A DNA stretch of 64,000 nt from Aurantiochytrium sp. KH105 (taxonomy: Eukaryota > Sar > Bigyra > Thraustochytrida > Thraustochytriidae), in contig BGKB01000012.1 of NCBI GenBank assembly GCA_003116975.1, positions 496,001 to 560,000 on the forward strand. Direction: 5' to 3'. Below the pieces are notes generated by a model. The model made no database searches, had not been told where the DNA came from, and worked only from the letters and a program-made list of their open reading frames with translations. The translations under genes and the position numbers were made by a program. This document shows, one piece after another, positions 15,605 through 34,262 of this stretch. Within the stretch, counting starts at the first letter, position 1, and each line of letters opens with the position of its first letter.

Positions 15605-16856
15605 TATCTGCTGCAGCTGATCATAATTTATTGCAATCGCACGCGAAGGTCCTCCCTCCCTCCATTGCGACAGTCATGATGGTGGTAGCGGTGGTAGCGG
15701 TGGTCACCGTGCGACGGCAGCGGATGCTGCTGCTGCTCCTGCTGCTGCTGCTGTTACAACTATTACTATTCTTACTACGAACCAAAATCCCAGCCTTTGT
15801 GTGCGCATGCGCTCACCACCTATAATGACATGATGAAATTTCCATGATTGAAACACGAGACTGTGAATCCAGTACCGAGGAGCACTTCTACCATGTCTGT
15901 CTTCTTCCCCACTTCCATAGTCCTTGAAAACTAGTTATTCCCCTCCTTCGACGCACAAGAGTCGATAACAAAAACTAGTGCAGCACTACGTAACCAGGCC
16001 CCTAGATCCCCTCGCACGACGCGCAGAGCCCCGCAGCCGCGCCCCATGGCCGCGCAATGGAGTGCGCCCCTGCTTGCCGCCTAATACCGCTGTGGGCGTC
16101 TTTCACCCCCCGTCCGTCGCCACCACACCTGGCCGCCGCGTGCCTGGACACGCAGCGCAAAGAGCAGCAGCAGCAGCAGCAGCGCCCTCGCTCGGCGCTT
16201 CCCGCCGCCTCGATCACGCGCCGCGCCGCGGCCCCGGGCGGCGCATGCCGGCTCCCCGCCGGCGGCCGCGGGCGGCCCCTCGCCGAGAGGCGCGTGCGCG
16301 GGCGGGCGAAGCGGGCGGCAAGGGAGCGAGGGAGCGAGGGAGCGAGTGAAGGAGCGCGCGTGCGGTGCTCCGTGCGTCGCGAGCTGGAGCAGAGGGCTGG
16401 ATTTCCAGCAGGGCCGCACGTGGGGTAATGTCTCCGGGTCCGGTGCGCGTGCGCTCCTGGCTTGCTCGGTATAAATAAATGGTAAAGAGGGAGAGGCTCT
16501 GCGAAAGGACCCGGCGGGAGAGGTGGGGACGCGCAGGGAGCGCGCGCAATGGACTCCCGCGCGTGCACGTAAAGCAAAGCCGGCGAGGCCAGCCCAGGCC
16601 AGCCACGCAGAGCAGAGGAGAGAAGAGCAAAGCAAAGAAAAGCAAGGCAAAGCAAAGCGTATTCGTCGCGGCGGCGGTGGCGGGCGCGGTCGCTTTGGTC
16701 GGTGCTTGGTCGCGCGGAGGGCCGCGGGTGCCTGCCTGCCTGCGCGGGCCGGTGACGATCGATTAGATTGGACTGCGAGCCCCTCGCGCACGCAGAGCCA
16801 GCCGCCTTGCTTGAAGAACGCGGGTGCAGGCAGAGCGAGAGACGCGCGGCGGCACG
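15605..16856. other. Intergenic region upstream of the giant glycosyltransferase gene
   Basis: The first half is the 3' flank of the zinc-repeat gene and has a GCT/CTG-rich tract near 15727-15756. The second half is very GC-rich, then carries an A/T-containing TATAAATAAA element at 16470 and an AGCAAAGC-rich stretch (16623-16660). No gene is recognised. Confidence 0.5.
16470..16479 (+). promoter_or_regulatory. Candidate TATA box for the glycosyltransferase gene
   Basis: TATAAATAAA stands alone in a strongly GC-rich context, 378 bp upstream of the ATG at 16857. It matches the eukaryotic TATA consensus and would imply a leader of roughly 350 bases. The position of transcription start is not visible. 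Confidence 0.35.
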
Positions 16857-19800
16857 ATGAGCGGGAGCGAGTGCAGCGTAGACGCCTTCGCGTGGGTCGA
16901 GGCGAGCCAACACGCGCCGACGACGCTGGACTGGAGCTTGAACGGCAAGCTCGCGCCCAACTTTAACAGAAACCAAGTCACCATCGTCGTGCCCGTGCTC
17001 AAGCTCGATGGGCTCCTTCCAGTGGCTTGCCGCGACTCCGAGGTGATCGCAGCCGGCACCCTCTTGGACGGCTCCCAGCAGAACTATACCGGGGAATGGT
17101 CAGAACAAGACCTCGGGTATCGCATCATTGTCAATGCACCCGTGGGCATCAACGCTCTCGAAATCTCTCTGGACAACCGATACGTCACAACGCTCGACTA
17201 CTCCCCCTTGGAGCCCGAAGTCCGGCGCAATGTTCTCTATACCATCCTCGGCGCCGTTGGATTTGCCTTTCTCTGGGTTCTTCTCTATATTGGCATCGAC
17301 TCTTGTCGGCGATACCGGCGTCGCCGCAGGCTCCGCCGTCGAGACCGAGCCCGCGTTACTGGAAAGGATGGCCCCGATCTCGAGTCCGAGCCCGAGTCCG
17401 TCGACCTTGAAGACCAAGAAAGTGGTCGCGGCAGCAGCAGCGGAGGCAGCATGAAATATACCAATCTTTTGCGCCAACAGCGGCCCGAGAAGCGCACGCG
17501 CGAGGTGCAGCAAATGCAGCTCAAGGCCCACCGTGAAATTCGGGACGCCGCCATGGTCAAATTCAAGACCTTTCTTCCCGAGGATCCCATGGCCGTCGCC
17601 GTCTGGCTCGAAACCACGGTCTGTCATCTCGAGGACTTCAAGCAGGTTTATGGCATCACGCTCTTTGACATTGCGCGCCAGACGCACACCTATCTGCTGC
17701 AAAAGCTGCGCCCCGGCGGCGCCAAGGGCATGTCTTGGGAAATGCCCGAGTGGTCCCGCATGGCCCTCATCCGGGATGGCTACTTTTTCGTCATCGTGGT
17801 CATGGCCGAGCTCATTCTCGAAGGTTTCACCGGCTCGGGCGTCTTTACCAGCGAGCAAATGTCTCGAGGGACCAAAGACATGGTCACTATCGCCCTCGCC
17901 GTCGGTCTTTCCTGTGTATTGCCGTTCATGATGTCCATGAGCCGCAATGCCTCACCGTTTTTGTACCAGCTTGTCCTCGCAAGCGTTCCCACGGTCCTTT
18001 GCAGAGACCTTACGGGCGGGATCATTTGCGCGTCCTTGGCTGGCGTTATTGCTTTTGTCATCACCATTTGCATCCATCAATGGAATGCCGCATTGGCAGC
18101 GCTCGTGGGGCTCATTGCCTTCGAGTTCGGACTCTTTATGCTCTTCGCCACGATGCTTTACCTCTTTCGTGTCCCGGATCCCCATGTTCAGTTGGCCGGA
18201 GGCAGGAACCCGATTTACCTCTTCCTCGTCGTCCTCGTCATGATGGTGCCCTTTGCCCTTAACCGCCTCATTCACAAGGACTCCGACTACTTTTGGGTCG
18301 GCGTTCACGCCGCGAGTATGTTTCTCGCCATCACGGTCATGGCGATCCGCATCCGCGTTCTCGCCAAGGCCTGGAACCTGTGGCTCCCCGGATTGCTGCG
18401 CTTGGCCTCGGAGATGAAGCAAGGCGATGTCACCGAGAACTTGGCCTCGCGTACGCGTCGCGACCGCGAAGAAGCATTGTGGATCGTGAACCGCAAGATC
18501 CCCGACAGTGATCAATGGAAACCGTATGAGGAAACAGCCACGGCCGGATTTTGGGAATACTATGGAATGGCGATGGAGGAACTTCGTAAAACGGCCATTG
18601 GCACGCCTGAACGCCGCTCCGGCGAGCTCTTTGACGGAAACGCCAACGAGATTGTCCACGGCGTCTTGTACTTTGTCATTCTCTCCTTCTCGGCCGTCCC
18701 TCTCTTCTTCTCCAAGGGCACCTCGAGCACGGTTTCGCGCGGCGTTCTCTTTGCCATGATTGCTTTTCTCTTTTCAGCTGGCACAATTGAACTTTTTGTT
18801 GGTCAGATTGCCGATGCCAAGCAGCAAGAGAACCACGAGCTTCTTATCCCCGCGAGCAAGCGCATCGTGCGCGTGATTGAACAAAAAATGCATCACGCGC
18901 GTCTCGAGGCCTACGGTCGTGTCATTTGTAGCTACCAGCTCACAGTCTTGCGTTGGTTCATTCTCGCCACCATTGTGGTCTATCTGCTTGAGCCCGCTGC
19001 GCTTTTTGTTACGCTGCCGTTCTCCACTGGGTACAATCTCGTCCTCTTTGCCATGATTTCGCGCATGTTTCTCAGTGGTTACGCGGATCGGGCTCATGTT
19101 GCGGTGATCATGGGCATCTTGGTTGGCGCCTTTGTGTTTTTGCTCTTTTCCGTAGTCACGCTCTATTCCACGCAGATCGCGCCTCTCGTGGTCCTCACGT
19201 GCCTTGCGATTCGCGCCCTGCGCTACGTTGCGCTGTCGTATGCAACCTTTGACAGCGGTGCTCCGATGCTCGTGTCCAACATGATTCTCGACGTTACGCG
19301 GGCGAGCTTTGTGCACATGATCCTTACCGTATCGACCGCGGTGCTCAGCTTTTGGGCTGGCGAAGCGGCCATGCTCAAGATTAACGAGTCCTTTTTCTCA
19401 AAGGCATCTATTACGTCCTCGGCGGCGATCTTTGCCTCGGCCATTGCCGCGACCGTGCTCGCCAATGTTGTGGTCTATGGTTTCTATCCCTTTATGCGTC
19501 TGTTCCGCTTGCGTTCGCTCGTGGAGTGGGACGAGCTCGTTGAATATCGCGTCACCTGCTTTCTCGCCTTTCTCGCCGGCTTCGTCTACCTCTACCTCTC
19601 GCCCCTGTCCCTCGGCGCCCTGCTCGGATTTGTCACAGCCACCATCATTTACGCCCACACCGTGCGTCATCTTGTGCTGCAGCCGCGCAACACATGGCAC
19701 AACACCATCGACCCTAACGACATTCCCATGACCAGTGGCAAACGTATTTTGGACGGCGGAGGTCTCACGCAGGTCAAGCCGGAAATCCGTGAGCAGCAGC

Positions 19801-22800
19801 TCGCTGACAAGCTGCGGACTGGCAGGATCAACGCAGTTCCACTGATCTTCGAAAACGGTGGACTTGGAGATCAACTGCTCGATTTCATTGATCGCAAACG
19901 TCATCTCTTTTCGCGGAGTGCCCTTCGCGCCATCGTACCAGCCGCAGGAGGCGCGAGCAGTACTGCCAATGTGAATTACGACTATCGCGCGACCGCCGAG
20001 GATGAGGCGCACACCTTTCTGCAAAGCATTATCCTCAACTTGCTCGAGACCCTCATTGGGGACTGTCGCGCGGGCAATACAATCGTCCATCTCTGCGACC
20101 AGAACATCCTTTACAAAGAGGGCTTCATGGCCATTGGCATTCGTCGCAAACAAGCAAACAGCAAGCTTGGCGGCGGTGCACGGAGCGGCGCTGCGGCGCC
20201 CAACCGTCAGCCCCAGGGCGCTGATGCCATGATGGTCACCAAGAACGGTACCATGTGGCGCGCCTCGCCGCTCTGGCGCTCGCAGGCTAACAATCGTCTG
20301 AACATCTACGTTGGCGTTGACCCGAGCCTGCTCCGGACACACAAGCAAGCTCTTGCGGACCAGGATCCCGCCACAGATATGGCTCTTGGCCGCATCGCGG
20401 AGTGCATGCTCCACGAATTTGTCGAGGACGCCACGCGAAGCCACGCCCTTGCTTCCGTCTCGGAGCTGGCCATGCTTGAGGCGCGCCGCGATGGTTTTCT
20501 CCCACGAAGCACGCGATGGCAGCTCGACCGCATGGCCGCTTCGCGCTTGGACCGCTTGACGCACACGAGGGACCAGACGGACCCCGAAGTGGAACGACGC
20601 AATGCCAACGCAAAGCGCCTACCCGTTGGCTGGCGCTTCGACAAGGCCTCCTGGGTCGAGACCTGCTCGGTGCAAAAGGAACTCGCGCTGGAAATTGGCG
20701 ATTACTGTGATACCCTTTTGGAAAAATCGCGGCAAAAAGGTTTGCGAAGGTTCTTTTGTGGGTCTGGTCGCAGGCAATGTAGCATTTTCTACCGCTGGGT
20801 GTATGTGTTCACCTCGGTGTCTCTGCGTCTCTGGTACATTGGTCTGCGTGGCGACATGCAGGTGCATCGCGAAGTGTGCGCCTATATCAAGCACGTTAAC
20901 ATTACCCCGTTCCCGATTGGCAACATCAACCTTTTGCTTTTCGTTCACAAGTTCTTTGCGCGCCCGCTCTTTCTGCTGACCATTCACATTTTTGCGTGGT
21001 CGTGCACGCCTCTTTACATTCAATGCAAGGGCCGGAGCGCATGGGGCAGACTCAAGCCGCCGCATGCCAAGCTGGGTCTTGACACGCCCGGTCGCGCTGC
21101 CGATGTGCTTGCGCTCAAAGAAGCGGCGCGAGCCACAATCTTTGAGGTCCACGTGCTCCGCGACGATGGACAGACACTGGTGCCCGGAATGCTTGCGAGC
21201 GTTCTCGACGAGATCATTCTTACGCGTATGAAGGAGCTCCGACCCTATTGGGCCGAGCGTCGTCGCATGTGCCGAGGCCGCATGCCCTTTCTTAAATTTT
21301 CGCGCGGCACAGAGCGTCTCCTTGAGCAGCAGCTCAAGCCACCCACCAAGACGATGGAAACCACTACACTTGCGCATACAGCGCAGGACTTGCTGATCAT
21401 GGGCGGCGCAGGATCCTCGCACAAGACCATTCACCCAGCACGCGCGGACAAGGTTGACGTCATCATCGATGCCTCGGCGACGCTATTTTACGTTTCCGGT
21501 GGCGTGACAACTTGTCTCATGCAGCTTATCAATCATGAGGGCGTCAACGAAGATTTCAACCTGCACGTGCTGGCCGAGGTTGCGTCGAACTCAACGCCTC
21601 GCATCGCCGCGCCGACGCGCTGCGTTTCCTCGATCCACCCAATTCCACTGCATGATGTGACGAGCTCGCCCGAGTCCTCAATTCACTCCTCGCGGCCTTA
21701 CTTCGACCTGGCCCTGCGAAAGCAGCGCACGACATCTTGGGTCTTGCGCGCGCGCTTTCACCCGCTGCTGCGTGAGCTCATTCGCGGCTGCTGTGAGCTC
21801 CAGGGCGTCGACGATCGCTCTTCCCAGGTGAACGAGTACTTTTCAGAGGTCGTGGTGGCCCTCTACGAATTTTTTGAGCAGTACGATTGGAACACGGCCT
21901 GGACCGATGGCCTTACGTGGCGTGTCTGGGTGCAGACGTGGCTCACGATTCTCGAGGAGAAACCCACGTCTGTGCAGCGGCTCTGGGCGCCTTCTCTGCC
22001 CGGCCTGCAAGAGTCGCTCATCTTCTTTTCCCAGACGCTGCGCTCGTTGTGCTGCGAGTTGCCTCGCGCCGACCTGTACCATTCATCGCACCATGGCATT
22101 GGCGCGCTCAAGGCTATTGTGCACAAGCAACGCTTCAAGTCGCGCGTCATTGTCTGGGATCACGGTATTCTTCTCCGTGAGCGCCTTGATCAGCTTTGTG
22201 CAGATGACTGTCTTCTGAACCCCTTTACACGAAACGCCATCATCGGTCTCACCCGTCTCACCGCGCGTCTCGTTTATAACACCGCCGATCTGATCTGTCC
22301 GTGCACAGACACCAACATGTACCGTTCCTGGATTTGTCTTATCGCCGGCCGACCCTCGCACGGTCCATTTGCGAAGCGCATTCAGCCTATCTCCAACGGC
22401 ACACAGCCGCTGGACGACCAGCTGCAATACAAGCCAATTCGTGGGTTCTACGAGGACCCGAAGCTCGACGAGGCCGAAGGTCCCGTCGTCGATCCGGAAC
22501 ACGTTCACGTGGTCGCGCTTTCGCACGTTTTGCGCATCAAGGACATTGTCAATGCCATCAAGGCCGCTCATCATATCGTGTACACGCGCGGTGTCAGCGT
22601 ATACCGCTTGCACATTTTTGGAGGTCTCGACAAGGATCCCAAGTACACTGCAGAGTGCAAGCAAGCCATTACGGATCTCAAGCTGGAACCTTATGTGACA
22701 CTGCACGGTCTCGGCGCCAAGCTCACGGTGCTCGCCAAGGGTGATCTCTTTATCAACTCCTCGTTTTCTGAGGGCCTCCCAATGGCCATTCTCGAGGCAG

Positions 22801-24101
22801 AGATGGCGCACATGGCCGTCGTATGCACAGACGTGGGCGGCTCACGGCAAGTCGTTCCGGACGCGCGCTCGCGCGCACCACCACGAGACCCCGTAAGTCT
22901 AGGCAATGCACAGATCCTCACACTCTGTGGCTACTATGAAGAAGCCGATGACGCGAAGCTTGACGACCTTCTGTTGAGCACCAAGGCCCGGCGCGGTCGC
23001 GAAGCGATTGGCGAGGCCAACTTTAAGCTTGCGATGAAGGGTCACCAGGAGACGGCTACCTACGACAAGCACCACGATGTCATGCTGCAATACGCAACTG
23101 ATCTCGAGGACCCTTCGGGTGTAAAATTGAATCCACCTCCATACTCGGTGAAGGTCTTCAGTCCCATCAATGTGCAGGTCGCAACCGCGGGCCCGGAAAA
23201 GAAGAGGCGCGGTAAAAAGTCCAATGTGCAGCTCAAGCAAAAGTCGCGCTCAAAGGCACCTACCTCTGGCAGGTCGAACATGTCTCGCGGACCCTTTGAT
23301 GACGATGCCCGTTCCGCCGTTTCTCGAACCACCGCGCACACACGGCGCACCCCTCATGGCAAGTCATCGTATGCCGAGACAGAGCCCGAGGCCTTTGAAG
23401 ACGAGGACTTTTACGAGGACGATAATGATGATGAATACGGCCAAGACGACGAGGACTATGAGGAGAGCGTCTTTACGGATGTGGACGGCACGCCTCTCGA
23501 CGATCTCGTGCCCCGGGTGGTGCAGCGGAGTTCCATGCAGCTTGACATGGACTATGTCCGCAACGTGCGTCATGGGTCGCATCATCCGGACGAAGATGAA
23601 TATGGCGTCTCCCCCTCGCCCTTTCGCAGTGGCGCGACCTCCCTGAGACCCATGTCGACCGTGATGGCCGCTCTCCGGAGAAATTCGGCGACGCACTCAG
23701 CCGACGGTGAGCGCCGACAGTACGAACAAGATCGTAGCCCTGGCCACACCACAGGCGGACGCTCAGAGGCGCCGTTGCAGCGCGCGGCAACATTGCTCGA
23801 CCTGAATGGAGATGGGACACACTCGGGAAGGTCCGGCCCAACTTCTTCGTCTCGAATCAGTGCTGGCATTCTGTCGTTGTTTCGCTCATCAGGACCGCAA
23901 GAAAGGTCGCCTGCGTCGACCGCTCCTGGTAACCACGGGTCGCAAGCGCTTTCGTTTCGGACGCGTGAGTATTCCGAGGATGATCTGGAAAAGGGCATTT
24001 ATGGCGGTGCGAGGAGCAAGTACGGCGATGAGGATGTGGAGGCAGACCTTGACGACGAGGAAGAAGACGACGCTAGCGACTCTCGGCGGCGAAGGAGGTA
24101 A
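16857..24101 (+). CDS. Giant polytopic membrane protein with C-terminal PelF/GT4-like glycosyltransferase
   Basis: The product is 2414 residues. A short N-terminal domain is followed by one membrane helix (about 126-148) and a basic stop. After a linker with a potential cytosolic helical part there are about 14-16 further hydrophobic helices (about 300-950). A soluble middle region (about 960-1530) contains one or two more hydrophobic segments near 1320-1385. From about 1530 the sequence resembles PelF-type (DUF3492) glycosyltransferases: a YVSGGV motif, ADLYHSS, and WDHGILLRER, like the HGIYxRER motif of PelF. A GT4 donor-site motif with the EX7E pattern (SEGLPMAILEAE) lies near 1965. The tail (about 2080-2414) is disordered, first basic and then acidic. 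PelF uses UDP-glucose to build a secreted polysaccharide in bacteria; here a membrane-coupled polysaccharide synthase is plausible but inferred. The ATG has A at -3. Confidence 0.8.
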   Translation: MSGSECSVDAFAWVEASQHAPTTLDWSLNGKLAPNFNRNQVTIVVPVLKLDGLLPVACRDSEVIAAGTLLDGSQQNYTGEWSEQDLGYRIIVNAPVGINALEISLDNRYVTTLDYSPLEPEVRRNVLYTILGAVGFAFLWVLLYIGIDSCRRYRRRRRLRRRDRARVTGKDGPDLESEPESVDLEDQESGRGSSSGGSMKYTNLLRQQRPEKRTREVQQMQLKAHREIRDAAMVKFKTFLPEDPMAVAVWLETTVCHLEDFKQVYGITLFDIARQTHTYLLQKLRPGGAKGMSWEMPEWSRMALIRDGYFFVIVVMAELILEGFTGSGVFTSEQMSRGTKDMVTIALAVGLSCVLPFMMSMSRNASPFLYQLVLASVPTVLCRDLTGGIICASLAGVIAFVITICIHQWNAALAALVGLIAFEFGLFMLFATMLYLFRVPDPHVQLAGGRNPIYLFLVVLVMMVPFALNRLIHKDSDYFWVGVHAASMFLAITVMAIRIRVLAKAWNLWLPGLLRLASEMKQGDVTENLASRTRRDREEALWIVNRKIPDSDQWKPYEETATAGFWEYYGMAMEELRKTAIGTPERRSGELFDGNANEIVHGVLYFVILSFSAVPLFFSKGTSSTVSRGVLFAMIAFLFSAGTIELFVGQIADAKQQENHELLIPASKRIVRVIEQKMHHARLEAYGRVICSYQLTVLRWFILATIVVYLLEPAALFVTLPFSTGYNLVLFAMISRMFLSGYADRAHVAVIMGILVGAFVFLLFSVVTLYSTQIAPLVVLTCLAIRALRYVALSYATFDSGAPMLVSNMILDVTRASFVHMILTVSTAVLSFWAGEAAMLKINESFFSKASITSSAAIFASAIAATVLANVVVYGFYPFMRLFRLRSLVEWDELVEYRVTCFLAFLAGFVYLYLSPLSLGALLGFVTATIIYAHTVRHLVLQPRNTWHNTIDPNDIPMTSGKRILDGGGLTQVKPEIREQQLADKLRTGRINAVPLIFENGGLGDQLLDFIDRKRHLFSRSALRAIVPAAGGASSTANVNYDYRATAEDEAHTFLQSIILNLLETLIGDCRAGNTIVHLCDQNILYKEGFMAIGIRRKQANSKLGGGARSGAAAPNRQPQGADAMMVTKNGTMWRASPLWRSQANNRLNIYVGVDPSLLRTHKQALADQDPATDMALGRIAECMLHEFVEDATRSHALASVSELAMLEARRDGFLPRSTRWQLDRMAASRLDRLTHTRDQTDPEVERRNANAKRLPVGWRFDKASWVETCSVQKELALEIGDYCDTLLEKSRQKGLRRFFCGSGRRQCSIFYRWVYVFTSVSLRLWYIGLRGDMQVHREVCAYIKHVNITPFPIGNINLLLFVHKFFARPLFLLTIHIFAWSCTPLYIQCKGRSAWGRLKPPHAKLGLDTPGRAADVLALKEAARATIFEVHVLRDDGQTLVPGMLASVLDEIILTRMKELRPYWAERRRMCRGRMPFLKFSRGTERLLEQQLKPPTKTMETTTLAHTAQDLLIMGGAGSSHKTIHPARADKVDVIIDASATLFYVSGGVTTCLMQLINHEGVNEDFNLHVLAEVASNSTPRIAAPTRCVSSIHPIPLHDVTSSPESSIHSSRPYFDLALRKQRTTSWVLRARFHPLLRELIRGCCELQGVDDRSSQVNEYFSEVVVALYEFFEQYDWNTAWTDGLTWRVWVQTWLTILEEKPTSVQRLWAPSLPGLQESLIFFSQTLRSLCCELPRADLYHSSHHGIGALKAIVHKQRFKSRVIVWDHGILLRERLDQLCADDCLLNPFTRNAIIGLTRLTARLVYNTADLICPCTDTNMYRSWICLIAGRPSHGPFAKRIQPISNGTQPLDDQLQYKPIRGFYEDPKLDEAEGPVVDPEHVHVVALSHVLRIKDIVNAIKAAHHIVYTRGVSVYRLHIFGGLDKDPKYTAECKQAITDLKLEPYVTLHGLGAKLTVLAKGDLFINSSFSEGLPMAILEAEMAHMAVVCTDVGGSRQVVPDARSRAPPRDPVSLGNAQILTLCGYYEEADDAKLDDLLLSTKARRGREAIGEANFKLAMKGHQETATYDKHHDVMLQYATDLEDPSGVKLNPPPYSVKVFSPINVQVATAGPEKKRRGKKSNVQLKQKSRSKAPTSGRSNMSRGPFDDDARSAVSRTTAHTRRTPHGKSSYAETEPEAFEDEDFYEDDNDDEYGQDDEDYEESVFTDVDGTPLDDLVPRVVQRSSMQLDMDYVRNVRHGSHHPDEDEYGVSPSPFRSGATSLRPMSTVMAALRRNSATHSADGERRQYEQDRSPGHTTGGRSEAPLQRAATLLDLNGDGTHSGRSGPTSSSRISAGILSLFRSSGPQERSPASTAPGNHGSQALSFRTREYSEDDLEKGIYGGARSKYGDEDVEADLDDEEEDDASDSRRRRR

Positions 24102-24810: not shown

Positions 24811-24983
24811 ATGGCGGACGACTGGAGACGCCGAGATCGCGATGGCCCCGGCGCGGGCCCCGGCGGCGGCGGCGGCGGCCGAGCAGGACCGCGCGCGCCG
24901 AGGGGAGGCCGGAGCGGAGGCGGCGGCGGCGGCCGGAACAGCAACTTTGGCCGTAGACATGGGCATGGTGGGAACAACAGCAA

Positions 24984-25018
<35 letters not shown>

Positions 25019-28000
25019 ATAACAACAATCTTGGGAACTTTAGAGGTGGGGGCGCCGACCAGGGGAGCGGGTGGACGACCGTGGGCGGCGGAGGCCGCTT
25101 CTCGCACCCTTCGCCAACTTCGTCCGTGGCGTCCGGACCTGCCTCGGCGCCCATGCCACCCGGCGGTGCAGTCCCACTCAACCGACGAGATTTCTCTTCG
25201 CAAAAGGATGCCGTCGCGGCTGCCGGGATCTCCGAAAACCAGGAAATCAAAAATGTCAAGGTCGTGGAAGTCGGCGTTGGAGGCACGCTAGTGGAGCTGA
25301 AGCAAAATATCTTTGGTCTCGTGAGCGGACTGGAACTTCAATCTGCGAACGGCACGCTCGAAGTCGTGGTTGTGACCAAAGTGCTGGCCTCGGGTCTGGT
25401 GCTTCTGCGCTGGGGCCTGGCACGCGAACCGGAAAAAGACGGTCCGCTCATTATTCTCGATCTCAATGGCGTGCTTGTGAATCGGCCAAACTTCAAGGAC
25501 CGTGGCCGCCACGGGCCTTCCGGCAGTCGCCCGACCTTTACGCGGCGACCCTTTTGCGATGAATTCATCCACTTTTGCATGGAGCACTTTCATGTTGGCG
25601 TGTGGTCTTGCGGCAAAAGCCAGAACATGGAGATGGAACTCTTTGATGCGTATCCGGGACGGGTGCTCTTCCAATGGGACCAGGAGAAGTCCACCAACGA
25701 ATGGCCTCGGAGGTCCGTCGTGTCCGAGGCGAAGCCCCTTTTTCTCAAGGATCTAAACAACATCTGGAGCGCCTTTGAAGGCCGCTTCACGGCTGCAAAC
25801 ACCTTGCTGCTCGATAACCACGCGGAAAAATTTGAGCGCAACCCCGTGGCAACCTGTGTCCTGGTTCCCGACTTTGATCCGCAACATCCTGACAACATCT
25901 TGAGCCCCACGGGTGACTTTTGCCGCGCGCTGGCACAGTACGCGACAGAAGCGACACGGGAAGGAAGTTCGCGTCCTGCAAGTCTGGATTCTATTCAGCA
26001 AGTCTACCTGCGCGATCGTCTGGCGACCGTCTTTACGTCGAGCGAGATCATGAAGAGAAACTGCCCGGACCGTGATGTTGGCTTTTACATGCAACATCGC
26101 GATATACCGGGCCCGCGTGCAGAGCCTTTCCGACTCTCCAAGCTCCTTTCCGTTGGGCAAGAGCATAAGCGCTGGGTCGTCTGCGAGAAGTCGGACGGCG
26201 TGCGCCACATGCTTCTCGGCTTACCCGGGCCCGGACGCGAATGCTTTCTTGTCGATCGCGCATGGAAGTTTCGCTACGTCGGTTCCTTCGAGGCCAACAA
26301 CGCGGACGGTGATGAACTAGATTCCAAGGATGACTGGCTTCTGTTGGATGGTGAGATTGTTGCTGAAAATGGGTACCTTATCTTTGACGTCGTTCGCCTC
26401 GGCGCGCGAGACGTGGGTGCTCTTTCGGATTTACGCGAACGCATGAGCCTCTGGCGCGACTTTCGTGGCGATCGTGATTCGCTTGGTAAGCTTTCTTTGA
26501 TTGACAAGGTGTTCGTGGACCTTTGTGAGATTTCGACGCTGCAAGAGGCGGCACACACCTTTACCTACCCACACGTTGGCGAGGTATCTTGCGACGGTTT
26601 GGTGCTTACTCCTCTGCAAAAGAATTATTACGAGTACACGGTCATCAAGTACAAGCCCGTGGAAGAGCTGACGGTGGACTTTCGCATCTTCACTCGGGAT
26701 CTCAATGGTAAAAAGCCTCGCGTGCCATTACACTTGTCAGACCATGTCACTGTCGCAGGGCGATCTGGAATGACAGACATCGAGACCAGCGAGGGCGTAG
26801 TGGACGATGAGTTGCGTGATGAGATCAATCGACATGGAGGCAATCGTGGGCGCGGCGGATCGCGGAAACCGTCCAGCACGATTGTGGAATGTCGCTTTGA
26901 CAAAGACTTGGGCGCATGGCGCGGGGTTCGCGGACGTTTTGACAAGGTTCGCCCGAACTCTCTCCGAACGGGATGGAGCGTTATCGAATCTGTTGCCGAA
27001 GCCATTTCTGTCAAAGACCTCATTCAGCGCGTCGAGGCACTAGTGCAAGAATACCCGGAAGGCGTCATTGAGGAGAACGAGGTCGCCACGGTCGCTGCGC
27101 ACTATAATGAGCGGCAAAGCGAGCGAAACAATAAGGGCAGGGATCAGCTCGATGCAGGCATTGCGAATCTGCGCAAGTTAAACAATTGGGCAAAGGCGGT
27201 CATGATTCACGAATGCTGCATGGGCAAACTGACGAACGGTCCGGAGACAAAGTCGTCCTCCGCGAGTCTGCCAGGTATTCCCAAGATGCTGGGACCGAAT
27301 TCGAGAAATATGAGCCACAAGGCCGTCCGCGAAGCGGAGCGCGCGCAACCCAAACGTCAGGCCCCTATGCGCATTCTAGATTTGGCGTGTGGGCGCGGAG
27401 GGGACCTTGCCAAGTGGCGTGCGAGCGCGGCAACAATTCAGTCATATGTCGGGGTCGATATTGCAAGCGTGGCACTGGAAGAGGCGCGTCGTCGCGCCCC
27501 ATCCGGCAACCAGCACGTCTTTGTGGAAGGAGACATCTCCGATCCTGCACTGGAGGAGCATGAAGCCTTCAAGGGCCAATCTTTTGATGTTGTAAGCACC
27601 CAGTTCGCCTTTCATTATCTATGCGGCGAGGAAGATCGCTGTGAGCGCTTCTTTTCGCTCTGCAGCAATGCGCTCTCCAGTCCCGCGCAGAGTGTGGAAG
27701 GACGGGACACTTTCGAGCCTCTTTTGCTCGTGTCAACCACGGACGCAGACGTCTTGCACGCGCGCCAACCCAATTTCTCCAACAAGGTGTGCGCCGTGTC
27801 CTTTGCGGATCCTCTACCCGCTGATCCAGCGGACATCGCTTTTGGAAGTGCCTACAGCTTTTCCCTTGGCGATGCTGTTCAGGACTGCAAGGAGTTCGTT
27901 GTCCCCGAAGCGCGCATCAAAGCGATGGCAGCTCGCCACGGCCTCGAGCTCGTCGTCTCTCAGAACCTTTCTGCCTTTGTATCAGACAAGTGCAAAGCGT

Positions 28001-28125
28001 ACGAGGCAATGCTGCACTCGATGTCCGTGATTGGTCACAAAACGCAGGGCAGGCCCCCCATGTCTCAGGACGAGTGGGAGGCTATTCAGCTTTACAAGAT
28101 GATGGTCTTTAGAAAAACAAAATAG
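24811..28125 (+). CDS. Three-domain mRNA capping enzyme: HAD/FCP1-like + guanylyltransferase + cap (guanine-N7) methyltransferase
   Basis: The product is 1104 residues from the ATG at 24811 (A at -3, G at +4). The first about 120 residues are a Gly/Arg- and Asn-rich tail. Residues about 210-390 form a HAD/NIF (FCP1-like) domain of the DLNG class: D217-L-N219-G for motif I, VWSCGK for motif II, a KPLFLKDL Lys, and LLLD335-N for motif IV. Residues about 440-740 are an mRNA guanylyltransferase: EK460SDG (the GMP-accepting Lys), FLVDR, YLIFDVV, D513GE, DGLVLTP, IKYKP, and RFDKVRPN in the OB fold. Residues about 850-1104 are an Abd1-type methyltransferase: LDLACGRGGD (SAM loop), QFAFHY, and the closing MVFRK. 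Steps 2 and 3 of capping are therefore both present in one nuclear enzyme. No canonical RNA triphosphatase (TTM or Cys-phosphatase) domain is visible. The gene is convergent with the next at 42 bp. Confidence 0.92.
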
Positions 28126-28167: not shown

Positions 28168-30369
28168 CTAGGAGGGAAGCATGAGAGACTCTTCCAGGCT
28201 CTTGTAAGCACCTTGCTGCTTTTGTTGGGCAGCCCGCAAGTCTTCAATGAGTTTGCGCTCAAGATCCTCGAGGCGCTGCACCTCCTCTTCCTTTTGTTTG
28301 ACTCGCTGCGCCTCGTGAGCGAGCTGGCGAGCTTTTTCTGCTTGTCGCTGCCGATGAAACTCTGCCTCGCGCCTTTGCTGCTCCTCGCGCTTCCGACGGA
28401 CTTGATCCAGGCGCGCCTTGCGCTTTTGCTCCTTTTCCTGCAGCCACTTGGCCTCCATTTTCTTCTTTTCTGCAAGAATACGCTGTTTCTCCTCTTGGCA
28501 CTGCTGCGTAAGCGTGCGCTTGTGTACAAATTGCTTTTTCAGGACCTCTTGTCGTTTCTCGCGAGCGTGCGTCCTCAGCTTTTTGTTCTTTTCTGTGTCT
28601 TGAATGATCAGCGTTGTGTTGCTTGCCTTGTGATTCTGCAGCGCCTGCGAGCGTTCCAGGCGCTCTCGACGCTGCTCTCGGATTTGGTCCACCCGATCCT
28701 CGGTCTCTGCGATCTTCTTCTGCGTCGCGTCGTGCTCGCTCTTGAGATGTTGTAGACGGTTTTTTAGCAGCTGAATGTCTTCCTCCAGATTCCTGCGCTT
28801 TTTCTTCTCCTTGCGTAGGCCATCCTGTACTTCGGCAATGGTCCAGGTGCTTACCTCTGCATACTCTTCCGAGTCATCTTCGACCTCATTCTTTGTTGTT
28901 GTACTCCTTCCTTTTATGCCGGTTCGCAAACTCATGGGCGTTCCGGGTGTGCCGTCATCTTTGCTTTCTGCGTCATCTCGCTCGCAATCTTTGTCAGGAG
29001 ATAGATTGAGGCTTTTCCGTTGCACCGAGCGAGTGCTACTCTTTTGGGAACGTTGGCTACTTTGCGGTGATTCAGCATCATCGGCTTGCTGCGAGTGAAC
29101 ACTGGTTTCTTCTTCTTCCAGCCGCAAGCTGCTTTTCTCTTGCGAGCGAGCACTGCGCTCTTCTTGCGAGCGAGCACTGCTCTTTTCTTGCGAGCGAGCA
29201 CTGCGCTCTTCTTGCGAGCGAGCACTGCTCTTTTCCTGAGAGCGAGCACTACTTTTTTCCTGAGAGCGAGCACTACTTTTTTCCTTTGAGCGAGCACTGT
29301 TCTTTTCATGTGAACGAGCGCTACTCTTTTCTTGCGAGCGAGCACTGCTCTTTTCCTGTGAACGAGCGCTACTCTTTTCTTCCGAGCGAGCACTGCTCTT
29401 TTCTTGTGAACGAGCGCTACTCTTTTCTTGCGAGCGAGCGGTACTCTTTTCATGTGAACGAGCGCTACTCTTTTCCTGTGAACGAGCACTGTTCTTCTCC
29501 TGTGAACGAGCGCTAGCCTTTTGCGGAGACGCATTCTCGGATACGACTTTTGCATTTGGCTCAGCTGCTTCGGACTCCTCGCGATTATCGTTCTCTTCGC
29601 TATCGGAACTTGCTCCCTCTTTGCGCCTCGGTGAGCGCTGCGATGACCTGGAGTTGCGCCGGCTTCTTGCACTCACCGATCCCTCTTCTCTTGATTTTTC
29701 CTCGGCCACCTCGTCTTCATCCACATCAGATGCAAACTCTGCATTGTTCTGGTCGTCGTCGCCGCCATTCTGCTTGGTTTCTTCGTCAATTTCTCGCTTT
29801 TCTTCCACGTCCTCTTCTACATTCCTCTCGTCTCCCTCATCGTCAGTCCCCTTGGGAGTTTGCATGTCGCGAGATGAACCTTGTTCGTCCTCATTTGTCT
29901 CTTCAGGATCGCCAGCACTGGGCTCTACTTTGGACATCTCGTTCTCATCATCGTGAGTGGAATTCTGGACTTCATCTCCATTCTTTGATTCTTGTTTTGC
30001 ATTCTCCTTTTCTTCTTCTTCGCGATGTGCATCTTCTGCATACTGAGTCTTGGAGGTCTTCTCAGGGCCATGAGCATTCTCTTCCGGCTCATCGTTTGCT
30101 GCAGTGTGATTCTCCTCGCCGGATTCGGTCTTTTCTTCTCCTACTTGTGCGTCATCTTGTTTTTCCTCAGATTCAGGGTCGTCATCGAGCTTGCTTTCAT
30201 TGTCTGGAAGGTCATCACGGCCCTGCTCATCGTCCTCAGCTGCCTTTGCTTCGCCTGCTGCGTCGTCTTCATTTCCACGCTCCGCTTCGTCCTTGGCTCC
30301 TTGCAAACGACCGCTTCGCGGCCGTTCGTTGCCATCGGCATCGTTGACCTTTTCCTCGTTATCTGCCAT
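28168..30369 (-). CDS. Acidic, octapeptide-repeat, coiled-coil protein of unknown function
   Basis: The product is 733 residues. Residues about 1-280 are highly acidic and disordered (Glu, Asp, Asn, Lys, Ser). Residues about 286-413 are 16 consecutive octapeptides of consensus SARSQEKS. A second Ser-rich segment leads to a continuous charged coiled coil (about 520-730) rich in Glu, Lys, Arg and Gln. The repeats look like phosphorylation or electrostatic-spacer sequence: each has Ser next to Arg. No catalytic domain is seen. Cytoskeletal or ciliary proteins often have this composition, but that is only a resemblance. The start has A at -3 and G at +4. It is divergent from the VPS9-RCC1 gene (614 bp) and convergent with the capping enzyme. 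Confidence 0.8.
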   Translation of the reverse strand: MADNEEKVNDADGNERPRSGRLQGAKDEAERGNEDDAAGEAKAAEDDEQGRDDLPDNESKLDDDPESEEKQDDAQVGEEKTESGEENHTAANDEPEENAHGPEKTSKTQYAEDAHREEEEKENAKQESKNGDEVQNSTHDDENEMSKVEPSAGDPEETNEDEQGSSRDMQTPKGTDDEGDERNVEEDVEEKREIDEETKQNGGDDDQNNAEFASDVDEDEVAEEKSREEGSVSARSRRNSRSSQRSPRRKEGASSDSEENDNREESEAAEPNAKVVSENASPQKASARSQEKNSARSQEKSSARSHEKSTARSQEKSSARSQEKSSARSEEKSSARSQEKSSARSQEKSSARSHEKNSARSKEKSSARSQEKSSARSQEKSSARSQEERSARSQEKSSARSQEERSARSQEKSSLRLEEEETSVHSQQADDAESPQSSQRSQKSSTRSVQRKSLNLSPDKDCERDDAESKDDGTPGTPMSLRTGIKGRSTTTKNEVEDDSEEYAEVSTWTIAEVQDGLRKEKKKRRNLEEDIQLLKNRLQHLKSEHDATQKKIAETEDRVDQIREQRRERLERSQALQNHKASNTTLIIQDTEKNKKLRTHAREKRQEVLKKQFVHKRTLTQQCQEEKQRILAEKKKMEAKWLQEKEQKRKARLDQVRRKREEQQRREAEFHRQRQAEKARQLAHEAQRVKQKEEEVQRLEDLERKLIEDLRAAQQKQQGAYKSLEESLMLPS
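29129..29513 (-). repeat. 24-bp coding minisatellite, 16 units
   Basis: Sixteen 24-base units encode SARSQEKS and variants (SARSHEKS, SARSEEKS, SARSKEKS, SARSQEER). Units differ mostly at third positions and at the Gln/His/Lys/Glu codon, so the array has diverged under reading-frame constraint. Confidence 0.85.
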
Positions 30370-30983
30370 CGTGCGCTCGCCAATGTTGGTGCGTCAAATT
30401 GTGCGAGCGACCAAGCGCATCCCTCGCTGCTTGCCGACTGACGTCACGACGTTCGTGTCGTGGTCAAACCTTGAACGAGACGCGAAGCGCAGGCTTTGAA
30501 GTCTTGCCCCAAGGCATGCGACCAAATCAGAACGCCGAGAAATGGCAAGCCGCCATACAAAAAGATCGCTTGTGGTGTCACTTGCCATACGCAGAATAAA
30601 GGTATACAAGCTCCAGCTCCTCCTTCCGTATACACTTGAACTTACTACGAGTACCTCTTCTTGTCAACGGATAGGTCCTTCTGCTACAAGTGAATTATAG
30701 CACCATGGAAACCGCATTATGGCCCAATTCTTGACAGTAAATAGGAATAGTAAAAGAGGTGGAAAGGAGCTATAACTCATTTGCACCCGAGATGATCGAA
30801 AAGGGCTAGCAGAAAGACAACGATCTTTGGCTGGGACTGCCGCAGCGCAGTCGCGGAGAGCGAGAGCTCCGCGGTAAAAGAACGGGACGCAGGACGATTG
30901 GCTGAATCGGGTTGCAAGCGAGCCTCCCGGCTCCCATCTCCCCTGCTCGCCAGCTCTTCCTTTGTTTCCGGGCGAGAAAGGCA
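30370..30983. promoter_or_regulatory. Divergent promoter region (octapeptide protein / VPS9-RCC1 protein)
   Basis: These 614 bases separate two divergently transcribed genes. An AT-richer centre (about 30590-30790, with GTATACA elements at 30602 and 30627) is flanked by GC-rich shoulders. No gene is seen inside, and precise promoter elements cannot be assigned. Confidence 0.4.
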
Positions 30984-33900
30984 ATGATCGAGACGGAGAG
31001 ACTCGAGGTGAACTCGGTGTTTGCAACCTTCGAGGAGCACCGCGACCAGGTCTTGCGCGAGTACGTAACAGAGCGAAATCGAAGACGATGCGTGTTTAAG
31101 CGCAGACGAAGTTATTCTGTTGATGTAGACCCTGCATCATGGTCGGTCTCCGATCGCACAAACGTACAGCTCGGCGACGCTCAGCTTGTGGGCCAGGACG
31201 GAGTGGTGAGCGAGGAACAAACGTCCTTTACAGACTGTGATCAAAGCATCCAAGGCACAGCAGCGGTCAGAGACTCGAGCGTAGCAGACAGGCGTGATTC
31301 AGACACTCGACTCGATTTAGCCAACGCTGCTGATGAGTCGCAGGGCAGTGAGCAACTATCAGTCTCGCTGGAAAGCACCGACGGATTTCTCGAAGAGGGT
31401 GCCACGGTAATCCTCTGCATTCCACAGGAGCTATCTTTACGATCACGACCAAATCTTGACGATGTGCGCTCGCACATGCTCGTTGCTGCCGCGGAAGCGC
31501 GTGGAGACTTTGTGACATTGGACGGGCGTAAAATCATCATCAAAGGAAATCAGGTCTTCGTGGGCGGCGCAGAGAAGACCACGCGCGTACGGCCCATGTG
31601 GCGCGAACGCATGGTCTTTGTACTTTATTCTGAGTCTGTGCAAGTCGCAACCCTTTGCGGAGCTAGAGGGACTGAGGTGACGATTTCGTTAAAGATATTG
31701 CACATTGACCGCCCCCTGCGTGGAGGCTGCGCGTCGCCATGCACGCTCGCGGGTATGACATTGAACCAGATTGGCAAATACTTGGGGGTCTTGCGATCAT
31801 ATCCTGAACACGAACCAGTATTTGAAGAGCTTGACGAGGTTATTGGCGCAGTGCAGGATGCCTGGGTAGACGACGCCGGCAGCGAGTTTCATGAAAACGT
31901 ACAACGCATGGTCAAGAGCTGGATCCGTACGTCTGCGGCCTCGCTCATTTACTCGTCGTCTTGTTTCGCAGCGCTGCATCACCGCGGCGCCACCAACGAG
32001 AACGGTGACACCAATGCTGAAGGCCTTCTCAACCGCTTGCGAAGGGAGCGCGAAAGCCTGCACACGCAGGTGCGACGGCACACGATTCAAGTCGAGCAAG
32101 CTTTGGAGGGGTATGTCATGGCGCAATTGCATGATCAAGCGATGGGTCAGCTGCGGCGAGCTTTTGTGCAAGAGGACACAAAATTTGCCCAGGAGGCTGT
32201 CGCCTTGCGCGCACGAGGATTGAACCAACAAGATTTAGGTATGCGGCCCGAGTATCAATGCCCGCAAGATGCCGCAATTGAGCACCTGCAACAGTTGTCC
32301 TCGAAAATAACGCCGCTCGAAAAGCTCTTGTGTTTGGAGACGGTGGTGTCATACATCAATGCAGCGGTCGAAGACAACTTGCACCGGCATTTCGAGGACG
32401 TGTCGAGCTTCCAACTCACGACGGATGACCTTTTGGACCAGCTCATCTACGTCATGGTCTGGACAGAAGGTCTTGAGGATCTGTCTGCGCAAATTTATTT
32501 CATGCGCGCGTTTCACACAATGAATGTGAACACGACTGCGCTCGGTTACAATTTGGCCAATGTTGAGGTGGCAGCTCTTTGGATCATGGGGAATGGGCGT
32601 GAATTATCAGCCACAACAGTGGAGCGCATGCGTGAACGCGTCGGCCCATGTGGGCCGCCACTCAGTCAGACTGTTGTGGCTACAGACGGGGACTTTTCGC
32701 GACTTTTCGTGGTCGTTGATGCCCAGAACTCTTCGCGCGAGGTGATGCTGGCTTTGCAGGGAAGTGCCGGGGAGAGACGCAGACCTGCGGTTTCGTGGCA
32801 GGAACCTGCGCTTCTTGAGAACATTCAGCGCTTTGCAGCGAGCAAGTTCACGCCTGGTGTGCATGCATGGATTGGTCGAAGTGGGCGCGTCCGTGTCAGT
32901 ACGGGGATGCACCACTCATTGCTTTCCCGTCAGCGATTTCGACGCGTCGCATGCGGAGAGAACCACATGCTTGCCGTGAATCATGCGGGCCAACTGTTTG
33001 CATGGGGGGATAACCGCGATGGCCAGGTGGGCGTAGGTGAACGAGAGGATCGATGCACTTCGCCGATGTGGGTCGACTTTCCGGCCTCGACCAAGGCAGA
33101 TCGGGCGCGCGAAGATGGTCGGCAAATCGTGGTGGAAATTGCCTGCGGGGCACGGCACTCGCTGGCGCTCACAGCAGACCAAGAGGTTTGGTCTTGGGGT
33201 CGAGGTACGTGTGGACGCCTCGGTCTGGGTCCGCGCACGGAAACGCAATATCTGCCCGCGCGCGTTGATCACCTCAACGATGAGCGCATTGAACAGCTCG
33301 CTGTTGGGTGGTCGCACAGCCTTGCTATTTCGGAGCTTGGCGTCGTTTTCGTTTGGGGATGCGGTGCTGAAGGGCGTCTTGGGCTTGGGACCGTGTCAGA
33401 TGTGTATATACCAGCGCAAGTGAATTTGCATGGCCGACGAGCCGCTAGTGCGGCGGCAGGGTACGCGCACTCGTGCATTTTGCTACGCGATGGAACTCTT
33501 TTAGGATGCGGAAGCGCGGCATTTGGTCAGCTTGGACTCGGTCGGAAAGCACTCTCGAAAGAGGTACTCGAGGCTCCTCCGAACGACGTCACAGGCAAGC
33601 CTGTGCGGCAGCGGGAAGGTAGTAGCTCTAGCGACGTCCGTGGTTCCTCCCCACATCAAAAACATGCCCAACACGAGGTTGAGGCCTTTGCGCCATCGCT
33701 GTTGCAAATGATGAAGAATCTACTTCCAACCTCACCGGGTGCGGATGAAGGGCGTGGCTCGTTTACCTCGCCGCTGTCGGTGGCGACTCCCAAACAGTCA
33801 CACGATCAACAGCAGGAGGATCGTCAGGATCATCATGGCGTTCATCACCAGCGAGCAGGACCTGGCCCGGTCTCGGAGACCCCTCGAAGGAGACCGTTTG

Positions 33901-34262
33901 TCCGCGGGAACGAACGAGGGTTGCATCGGCAGGAAAACCAGGATGCTTGCGGCGACAGTTTTGCTGACTCATCGCTTACGCTGCGAAGCGCCGACGGTGG
34001 TCTTTCATGCCTCGTTCCGCTGCCGTTGCCTCATCTCGGTTCGCACCGCATTGTGAGCGTCGATTGCGGGCGTTATCACGCGGCTGCTGTGACGGATCTT
34101 AGCGAGGTGCTCGTGTGGGGCTTCGATGAGCAGGACGACATCATCATCCCGGAGCCGGCTTTGGTGCGCAATCTTTTGCCTGGCGCCGCGGACCACGTGA
34201 TTTGCGGCGCGGGGACCACCTTTGTAGTTTTCTGTCAAGAGGTCATCTCCTCGCTCACCTAG
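30984..34262 (+). CDS. VPS9-domain and RCC1-repeat protein (alsin-like Rab GEF candidate)
   Basis: The product is 1092 residues from the ATG at 30984 (G at -3). The N-terminal 330 residues are partly disordered; about 170-290 has a vaguely PH/DH-like pattern (MVFVLYSESVQVA; YPEHEPVFEELDEVI) that I would not insist on. A VPS9 domain is clear at about 430-535 (TPLEKLLCLETVVSYI; TTDDLLDQLIYVMVW; GYNLANVEVAALWI). VPS9 domains exchange nucleotide on Rab5-family GTPases on endosomes. From about 625 to 1085 there are RCC1/ATS1 repeats (ACGENHMLAVN, FAWGDNRDGQVGVG, WSWGRGTCGRLGLG, VFVWGCGAEGRLGLG, GCGSAAFGQLGLG). The propeller is interrupted by a disordered insert (about 855-1010) before the last blade. 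Alsin/ALS2 has the same two domains in the opposite order. Confidence 0.87.
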   Translation: MIETERLEVNSVFATFEEHRDQVLREYVTERNRRRCVFKRRRSYSVDVDPASWSVSDRTNVQLGDAQLVGQDGVVSEEQTSFTDCDQSIQGTAAVRDSSVADRRDSDTRLDLANAADESQGSEQLSVSLESTDGFLEEGATVILCIPQELSLRSRPNLDDVRSHMLVAAAEARGDFVTLDGRKIIIKGNQVFVGGAEKTTRVRPMWRERMVFVLYSESVQVATLCGARGTEVTISLKILHIDRPLRGGCASPCTLAGMTLNQIGKYLGVLRSYPEHEPVFEELDEVIGAVQDAWVDDAGSEFHENVQRMVKSWIRTSAASLIYSSSCFAALHHRGATNENGDTNAEGLLNRLRRERESLHTQVRRHTIQVEQALEGYVMAQLHDQAMGQLRRAFVQEDTKFAQEAVALRARGLNQQDLGMRPEYQCPQDAAIEHLQQLSSKITPLEKLLCLETVVSYINAAVEDNLHRHFEDVSSFQLTTDDLLDQLIYVMVWTEGLEDLSAQIYFMRAFHTMNVNTTALGYNLANVEVAALWIMGNGRELSATTVERMRERVGPCGPPLSQTVVATDGDFSRLFVVVDAQNSSREVMLALQGSAGERRRPAVSWQEPALLENIQRFAASKFTPGVHAWIGRSGRVRVSTGMHHSLLSRQRFRRVACGENHMLAVNHAGQLFAWGDNRDGQVGVGEREDRCTSPMWVDFPASTKADRAREDGRQIVVEIACGARHSLALTADQEVWSWGRGTCGRLGLGPRTETQYLPARVDHLNDERIEQLAVGWSHSLAISELGVVFVWGCGAEGRLGLGTVSDVYIPAQVNLHGRRAASAAAGYAHSCILLRDGTLLGCGSAAFGQLGLGRKALSKEVLEAPPNDVTGKPVRQREGSSSSDVRGSSPHQKHAQHEVEAFAPSLLQMMKNLLPTSPGADEGRGSFTSPLSVATPKQSHDQQQEDRQDHHGVHHQRAGPGPVSETPRRRPFVRGNERGLHRQENQDACGDSFADSSLTLRSADGGLSCLVPLPLPHLGSHRIVSVDCGRYHAAAVTDLSEVLVWGFDEQDDIIIPEPALVRNLLPGAADHVICGAGTTFVVFCQEVISSLT

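Follow-up and report, generated by a model that had tools for sequence, protein, structure and literature searches.

We identified in Aurantiochytrium sp. KH105 a gene that encodes, in one polypeptide, a HAD domain of the NIF family, a guanylyltransferase (GTase) and a cap guanine-N7 methyltransferase (MTase). The genome appears to have two sets of capping enzymes, and the fusion, which joins GTase and N7-MTase in a single chain and coexists with a second set, appears to be the additional one. The reading that we prefer, with a probability of about 55%, is that the fusion is an auxiliary GTase-MTase acting on diphosphate-ended RNA (ppRNA) made by another protein, and that its HAD domain would serve as a docking or regulatory module.

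The fusion gene and its second copy

The gene lies on the plus strand of the window, that is, the whole 64,000-nucleotide stretch of DNA that was analyzed. Its frame (24811-28125) opens with the first in-frame ATG, is free of internal stops and ends with TAG. The parts of the gene, in window coordinates, are as follows.

24811..28125, plus strand: whole gene, HAD(NIF)-GTase-OB-N7-MTase, 1104 aa in a single open frame
24811..25185, plus strand: Gly/Ser/Asn/Arg-rich low-complexity tail, aa 1-125, weakly constrained
25186..25425, plus strand: segment aa 126-205, conserved between copies, without a Pfam match
25426..26010, plus strand: putative NIF/HAD domain with motif I DLNG (Pfam match, alignment, dN/dS 0.07)
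26113..27030, plus strand: predicted guanylyltransferase and OB fold, nucleophile K460 (Pfam match, motif set)
27031..28122, plus strand: predicted cap guanine-N7 methyltransferase (Pfam match, LDLACGRGGD and QFAFHY)

In Pfam searches, aa 213-376 matched NIF at 44.8 bits (curated cut-off 21.8), aa 452-607 matched mRNA_cap_enzyme (PF01331) at 45.4 bits (cut-off 29.6), aa 685-738 matched mRNA_cap_C (PF03919) at 37.4 bits (cut-off 26.5), and aa 845-1102 matched mRNA_G-N7_MeTrfase (PF03291) at 163 bits (cut-off 26.6). Cellular mRNA GTases are characterized by the KxDG nucleophile together with motifs III, IIIa, IV, V and VI. Motifs I, III, IIIa, IV, V and VI and the OB fold are all present in the fusion, as EKSDG (K460), FLVDR at 479, DGEI at 513, DGLV at 595, IKYK at 612 and RFDK at 709 (also at 695). 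The MTase carries LDLACGRGGD at 856 and QFAFHY at 931. The best solved relatives in a search of PDB sequences were cap MTases (up to 72.3 bits) and GTases (up to 41 bits), and we take the best-matching chains to be fungal and mammalian enzymes.

The KH105 assembly has 367 contigs with a total of 76.03 Mb, in which most families occur as near-identical pairs. A strong pfaD-type match, for example, was found at four places, which represent two genes in two copies each (682.3 and 710.6 bits); pfaD-type polyunsaturated-fatty-acid synthases are typical of thraustochytrids. The G+C content of 2-kb blocks in the window ranges from 52 to 67%. Excerpts of the genome paper describe the strain as diploid with duplicated genes, with scaffolds of 76.7 Mb in the text and 86.0 in the table and a G+C content of 54.4% (PMC5924542). 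The second copy of the fusion (C22:554468-557773) is 98% identical and has the same open frame and the same downstream neighbor. The HAD-GTase-MTase fusion is therefore real, and is neither a chance arrangement nor a one-off assembly artefact. The frame, the Pfam matches, the motifs and the second copy bear out the coordinates, residue numbers and single-frame fusion given in the initial annotation of this DNA. Its statement that no TTM or Cys-phosphatase domain is visible in the protein also held, with no such match (PF02940, DSPc-type) at E values up to 1.

Substitutions between the copies were counted by the Nei-Gojobori method within domain bounds of our own choosing, and the counts are small: 5 synonymous and 7 non-synonymous in aa 1-125 (dN/dS 0.48), 4 and 0 in aa 126-205, 8 and 2 in the HAD domain (aa 206-400, dN/dS 0.07), 3 and 0 in the linker from HAD to GTase (aa 377-434), 24 and 9 in the GTase (aa 401-745, dN/dS 0.11), and 15 and 4 in the MTase (aa 746-1104, dN/dS 0.075). 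Small as they are, these counts indicate that purifying selection spans the HAD domain, linker, GTase and MTase. The pattern resembles that of a single coding unit whose HAD domain is held as strictly as its enzyme domains. The constraint on the HAD domain and linker therefore argues against a decaying HAD domain and against a non-coding stretch between two genes.

The convergent neighbor of the fusion (28168-30369, minus strand) contains many SARSQEK-type repeats and had no Pfam match at E values up to 0.001. An open frame with a VPS9 domain and RCC1 repeats follows at 30912-34262 (plus strand). Upstream, a 2425-aa frame at 16824-24101 (plus strand) has a long hydrophobic N-terminal part and matches to DUF3492 and group 1 glycosyltransferases (aa 1552-2029).

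Separate capping genes and the source of the triphosphatase

PF01331 matched four places in the assembly, corresponding to two genes with two copies each. One is the fusion (49.6 and 47.7 bits), and the other is a separate GTase (110.3 and 108.9 bits) of 429 aa, whose matches are limited to the GTase and OB families. The separate GTase has all six motifs, and its matches to solved GTases reach 109 bits. PF03291 revealed a second N7-MTase gene, with copies on contigs C85 and C277. This 907-aa protein (L065:19-2742, C85:386823 onwards; copy L066 on C277) has an N-terminal half resembling a TTM triphosphatase, so that a single chain appears to unite the first capping step with the third while the GTase is separate. 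A TTM-MTase layout was absent from the literature among the matches listed.

In BLASTP comparisons the fusion and the separate enzymes share 24% identity in both domains (67 bits for the MTase, 56 bits for the GTase). This distant relationship indicates that the doubling of the capping domains is old. Two features favor the separate GTase and the TTM-MTase as the housekeeping set: the former is typical in sequence, and the latter is strictly constrained. The separate GTase has 19 synonymous and 13 non-synonymous substitutions between its copies (dN/dS 0.19), a weaker constraint than that on the fusion GTase (0.11), which points the opposite way and fits poorly with a housekeeping role for it and an auxiliary one for the fusion.

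The match of PF02940 to aa 1-470 of L065 (21.3 bits, E 2.4e-4) is under the cut-off of 24, as are the matches to the whole protein (18.8 bits) and to its copy (18.7 bits). The profile regions covered by the best-matching stretches differ between the two copies and are collinear (69-183 on 64-168 and 355-398 on 178-220). Five TTM motifs occur in order at positions 53, 164, 357, 371 and 393 of L065. None of 20000 shuffles matched this five-motif pattern, although the pattern is loose and was built with L065 in view, so that the zero gives no unbiased probability. Among 183 stop-to-stop frames of at least 300 aa from the window and the fetched loci, only those of L065 and L066 matched it. The TTM-like half shows 29 synonymous and 2 non-synonymous substitutions between copies (dN/dS 0.02). 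Beyond its two copies, the genome contains no long match to it; the third match covers 51 residues at E 0.04. A phmmer search of PDB sequences with this half found no solved TTM chain. A scan of the whole genome with PF02940 gave no matches, but it also recovered none of 14 controls and missed the L065 half. Taken together, the TTM-like half is a probable triphosphatase.

The Cys-type triphosphatase of the RNGTT kind is recognized by the motif HCxHGxNRTG. The genome has 51 DSPc matches, and of the 30 loci that were read, 24 carry an HCx5R motif close to the DSPc match and 6 do not. The RNGTT-type motif is absent from these 30 of the 51 loci, the nearest sequence being HCTSGVNRG in L049/L050. 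The search for a separate triphosphatase gene, which the initial annotation had proposed, was thus successful in part: a TTM-like candidate scoring under the cut-off was found, and an RNGTT-type one was absent from the loci read. The same annotation had placed the HAD domain where the RNA triphosphatase should be. That description is not supported, the genome having a separate, more typical GTase and an N7-MTase bearing a TTM-like half. Because these separate genes exist, the fusion appears to be an additional enzyme, and a different gene probably provides its triphosphatase.

The HAD domain and its relatives in the genome

NIF phosphatases have DxDx(T/V) as motif I, Ser or Thr in motif II, Lys in motif III and Asp in motif IV. 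Alignment located the corresponding residues of the fusion as D217, N219, S266, K313, D335 and N336. The Ser of motif II (S266), the Lys of motif III (K313) and the Asp of motif IV (D335) are present. Motif I reads DLNG and lacks the second Asp (N219), the Asn falling at the +2 position that is the acid/base in NIF phosphatases. With D217, S266, K313 and D335 retained, catalysis may be possible.

NIF matches were found at 22 places in the genome, which pair into 11 genes. Motif I is of the DxN type in three of the 11: the fusion, L023 and the pair L025/L026. L023, L025 and L026 are NIF proteins that stand alone, with no capping domain, and read DLNG or DVNG in motif I. In motif IV, the "DN" of the fusion recurs in L011 and L013, which by eye are SCP-like NIF proteins and which both have a DxDE motif I. 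Because two genes with intact DxDE read DN, this sequence is ordinary and not a lesion.

We constructed a tree of NIF sequences with 12 rows, comprising the fusion and ten other genes of this genome (one with both copies). The DxNG rows (the fusion and the stand-alone proteins) group at 88/89, with L021 alongside at 98/96; five of the nine inner branches are left open and several terminal ones are long, so that the exact placement of the HAD domain is soft. L021 is UBLCP1, matching 3shq at 177.2 bits, and its ubiquitin segment scores 22.5 bits against a Pfam cut-off of 25.4. UBLCP1 is a protein phosphatase. The sole sensible solved match of L023 in the PDB sequence search was also UBLCP1 (24.1 bits). 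The fusion HAD domain itself had UBLCP1 (3shq) as its best solved match of the right fold, second in the table at 19.6 bits and E 0.0058. Matches to immunoglobulin and antibody chains, at 20 bits or less and of unrelated fold, were dropped as chance, including one (E 0.0046) that outranks UBLCP1. Modeled from its single sequence, the HAD region (aa 134-410) gave a structure with a pLDDT of 34.8, too low for a fold search.

Since two stand-alone DxNG proteins cluster with the HAD domain, next to UBLCP1, the DxN of motif I is best read as a clade trait. The domain would accordingly seem to be a DxNG relative of UBLCP1, with a role that need not concern the polymerase tail. The DxNG branch has no function that we are aware of. 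The initial annotation had called the domain FCP1-like; in the small tree it lies apart from L011 and from L019, the FCP1-like protein of this genome (NIF and BRCT), which is encoded by a gene separate from the fusion. It had also taken "DN rather than DD" in motif IV as a sign of inactivity, an argument that falls with the two DN proteins whose DxDE is intact. The suggestion that the domain may bind rather than cleave is supported, with the D-to-N change in motif I as its sole remaining argument. One further pair of NIF matches (L029 and L030) lies in a 374-aa open frame that is FCP1-like by eye and from which motif I is absent, which would indicate either that an exon was missed or that the copy is catalytically dead.

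Proposed role, alternatives and comparison with known systems

The sequences establish the architecture, the integrity of the motifs, the purifying selection, the second GTase and MTase genes, and the position of the HAD domain in the tree; we infer the catalytic activity of the fusion, the source of its ppRNA, the docking role and a division of labor. The GTase of the fusion would convert ppRNA to GpppRNA through K460, and the MTase of the same polypeptide would methylate GpppRNA at N7 to give m7GpppRNA. The ppRNA would be supplied by a different protein, for which the TTM-like half of the TTM-MTase is the most likely candidate, or alternatively by a salvage route. The HAD domain would most likely be a phospho-dependent docking or regulatory module, either a pseudophosphatase or a very slow phosphatase, that docks on a phosphoprotein or controls the enzyme and so fixes the site or the RNA targets of the fusion. 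It matches the NIF family of UBLCP1, with motifs I to IV located, but differs from these phosphatases in its DLNG motif I, the lack of a matched ubiquitin-like domain and its union with capping domains.

The HAD domain could instead be catalytically active on the Pol II tail or another phosphoprotein, as a phosphatase that couples capping to dephosphorylation. NIF enzymes generally target phosphoproteins, and a tail is present in the presumed RPB1 (L071:988-3039, minus strand, on C30, with a copy on C87), which was identified by the repeat family PF05001 in its tail alone and not by its core. This tail has many nine-residue repeats of the YSPSSPAAA/YSPSSPAQA type and not plain heptads. We consider this reading unlikely, given the D-to-N change in motif I, the separate FCP1-like gene and other DxD NIF genes, and a tree position beside UBLCP1, away from L019 and L011.

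Trypanosomes also have two m7G capping sets. According to excerpts of PMC11417388, the nuclear enzyme TbCgm1 combines GTase and MTase and likely works together with the triphosphatase TbCet1, the cytoplasmic set consists of TbCe1 (kinase and GTase) with TbCmt1, and one set caps the spliced-leader RNA while the other recaps. TbCet1 is described in excerpts of PMC4791841 as a TTM triphosphatase. The initial annotation had attached a kinase-like N-terminus to the kinetoplastid GTase-MTase, and in doing so mixed two enzymes, the RNA kinase belonging to TbCe1 and not to TbCgm1 (PMC11417388, in part). Like TbCgm1, the fusion is a GTase and N7-MTase in one polypeptide with a second set in the same cell, and its triphosphatase is likely a separate TTM protein. 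Unlike TbCgm1, with which it was compared by layout and not by sequence, it has an N-terminal NIF/HAD partner. The other set also differs, being a lone GTase and a TTM-MTase fusion in which no kinase was seen. The two layouts are alike in logic.

The fusion could alternatively be a cytoplasmic recapping enzyme, functionally like TbCe1/TbCmt1, with a HAD domain that helps to recognize decapped RNA or granules. The presence of two capping sets within one genome agrees with this, as does the Gly/Asn-rich tail, of a type known from granule proteins, and a cytoplasmic set has a published precedent in trypanosomes (PMC11417388, in part). Pfam found no kinase domain in the fusion for converting pRNA to ppRNA, however, and we regard recapping as improbable, to the same degree as the tail phosphatase.

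Doubtful to a greater degree is an active RNA 5'-end phosphatase that replaces the TTM or Cys-type triphosphatase for the fusion. D217 would attack the gamma-phosphate, and the diphosphate leaving group would lessen the need for an acid at +2. P-type ATPases likewise have less need of a general acid there. The retained nucleophile, S266, K313 and D335, the strong constraint, and an N-terminal position matching that of the triphosphatases in other capping fusions all agree with such an activity. Against it are the Asn at the acid/base position, the stand-alone DxNG relatives without a capping domain, the TTM-like triphosphatase gene elsewhere in the genome, and the identity of UBLCP1, the sole solved relative of the right fold among the matches obtained, as a protein phosphatase. 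Slightly less probable again is the bolder form of this idea, in which the DxNG HAD would be a third structural class of cap-forming RNA 5'-phosphatase, using an aspartyl-phosphate on a phosphoanhydride, with one chain carrying out three steps.

Capping enzymes of large DNA viruses have the order TTM-GTase-MTase. The fusion shares their order of phosphatase-type domain, GTase and MTase, but carries a HAD domain in place of the TTM. Fused capping enzymes are typical of these viruses, and excerpts of PMC11911517 report that a fish iridovirus has a NIF-type phosphatase (006L) as well as a capping enzyme (ORF065L), encoded by two separate ORFs. Acquisition from such a virus is nevertheless very improbable, given the cellular origin of the best-matching solved chains, the weak match (15.4 bits) to 1ckm, presumably the chlorella-virus GTase, and flanking genes that look cellular. 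Scans for relatives on viral contigs, run without a positive control, gave no pattern matches for the whole protein or the motif pattern, and 39 for the MTase alignment and 38 for the GTase alignment, none of which was confirmed; this outcome counts for little as a sign of absence. The metazoan and plant capping enzyme, a Cys-triphosphatase-GTase in excerpts of PMC2904801, resembles the fusion in having an N-terminal phosphatase-type domain and a GTase, but in the fusion that domain is of a putative HAD-type family and the MTase is joined as well.

A HAD/NIF-capping fusion was not found in the literature among the matches listed, a coverage outside which most subscription journals fall. Our preferred reading is that of an auxiliary GTase-MTase with a docking or regulatory HAD domain. 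If the doubling is true, capping would be doubled in a stramenopile-like host with a partner domain different from that of the trypanosomes, the second enzyme would have arisen or been kept for another reason, and this organism would allow us to ask why a second capping enzyme exists. The union of a DxNG HAD domain with a pathway of known chemistry would also provide a first handle on the DxNG branch.
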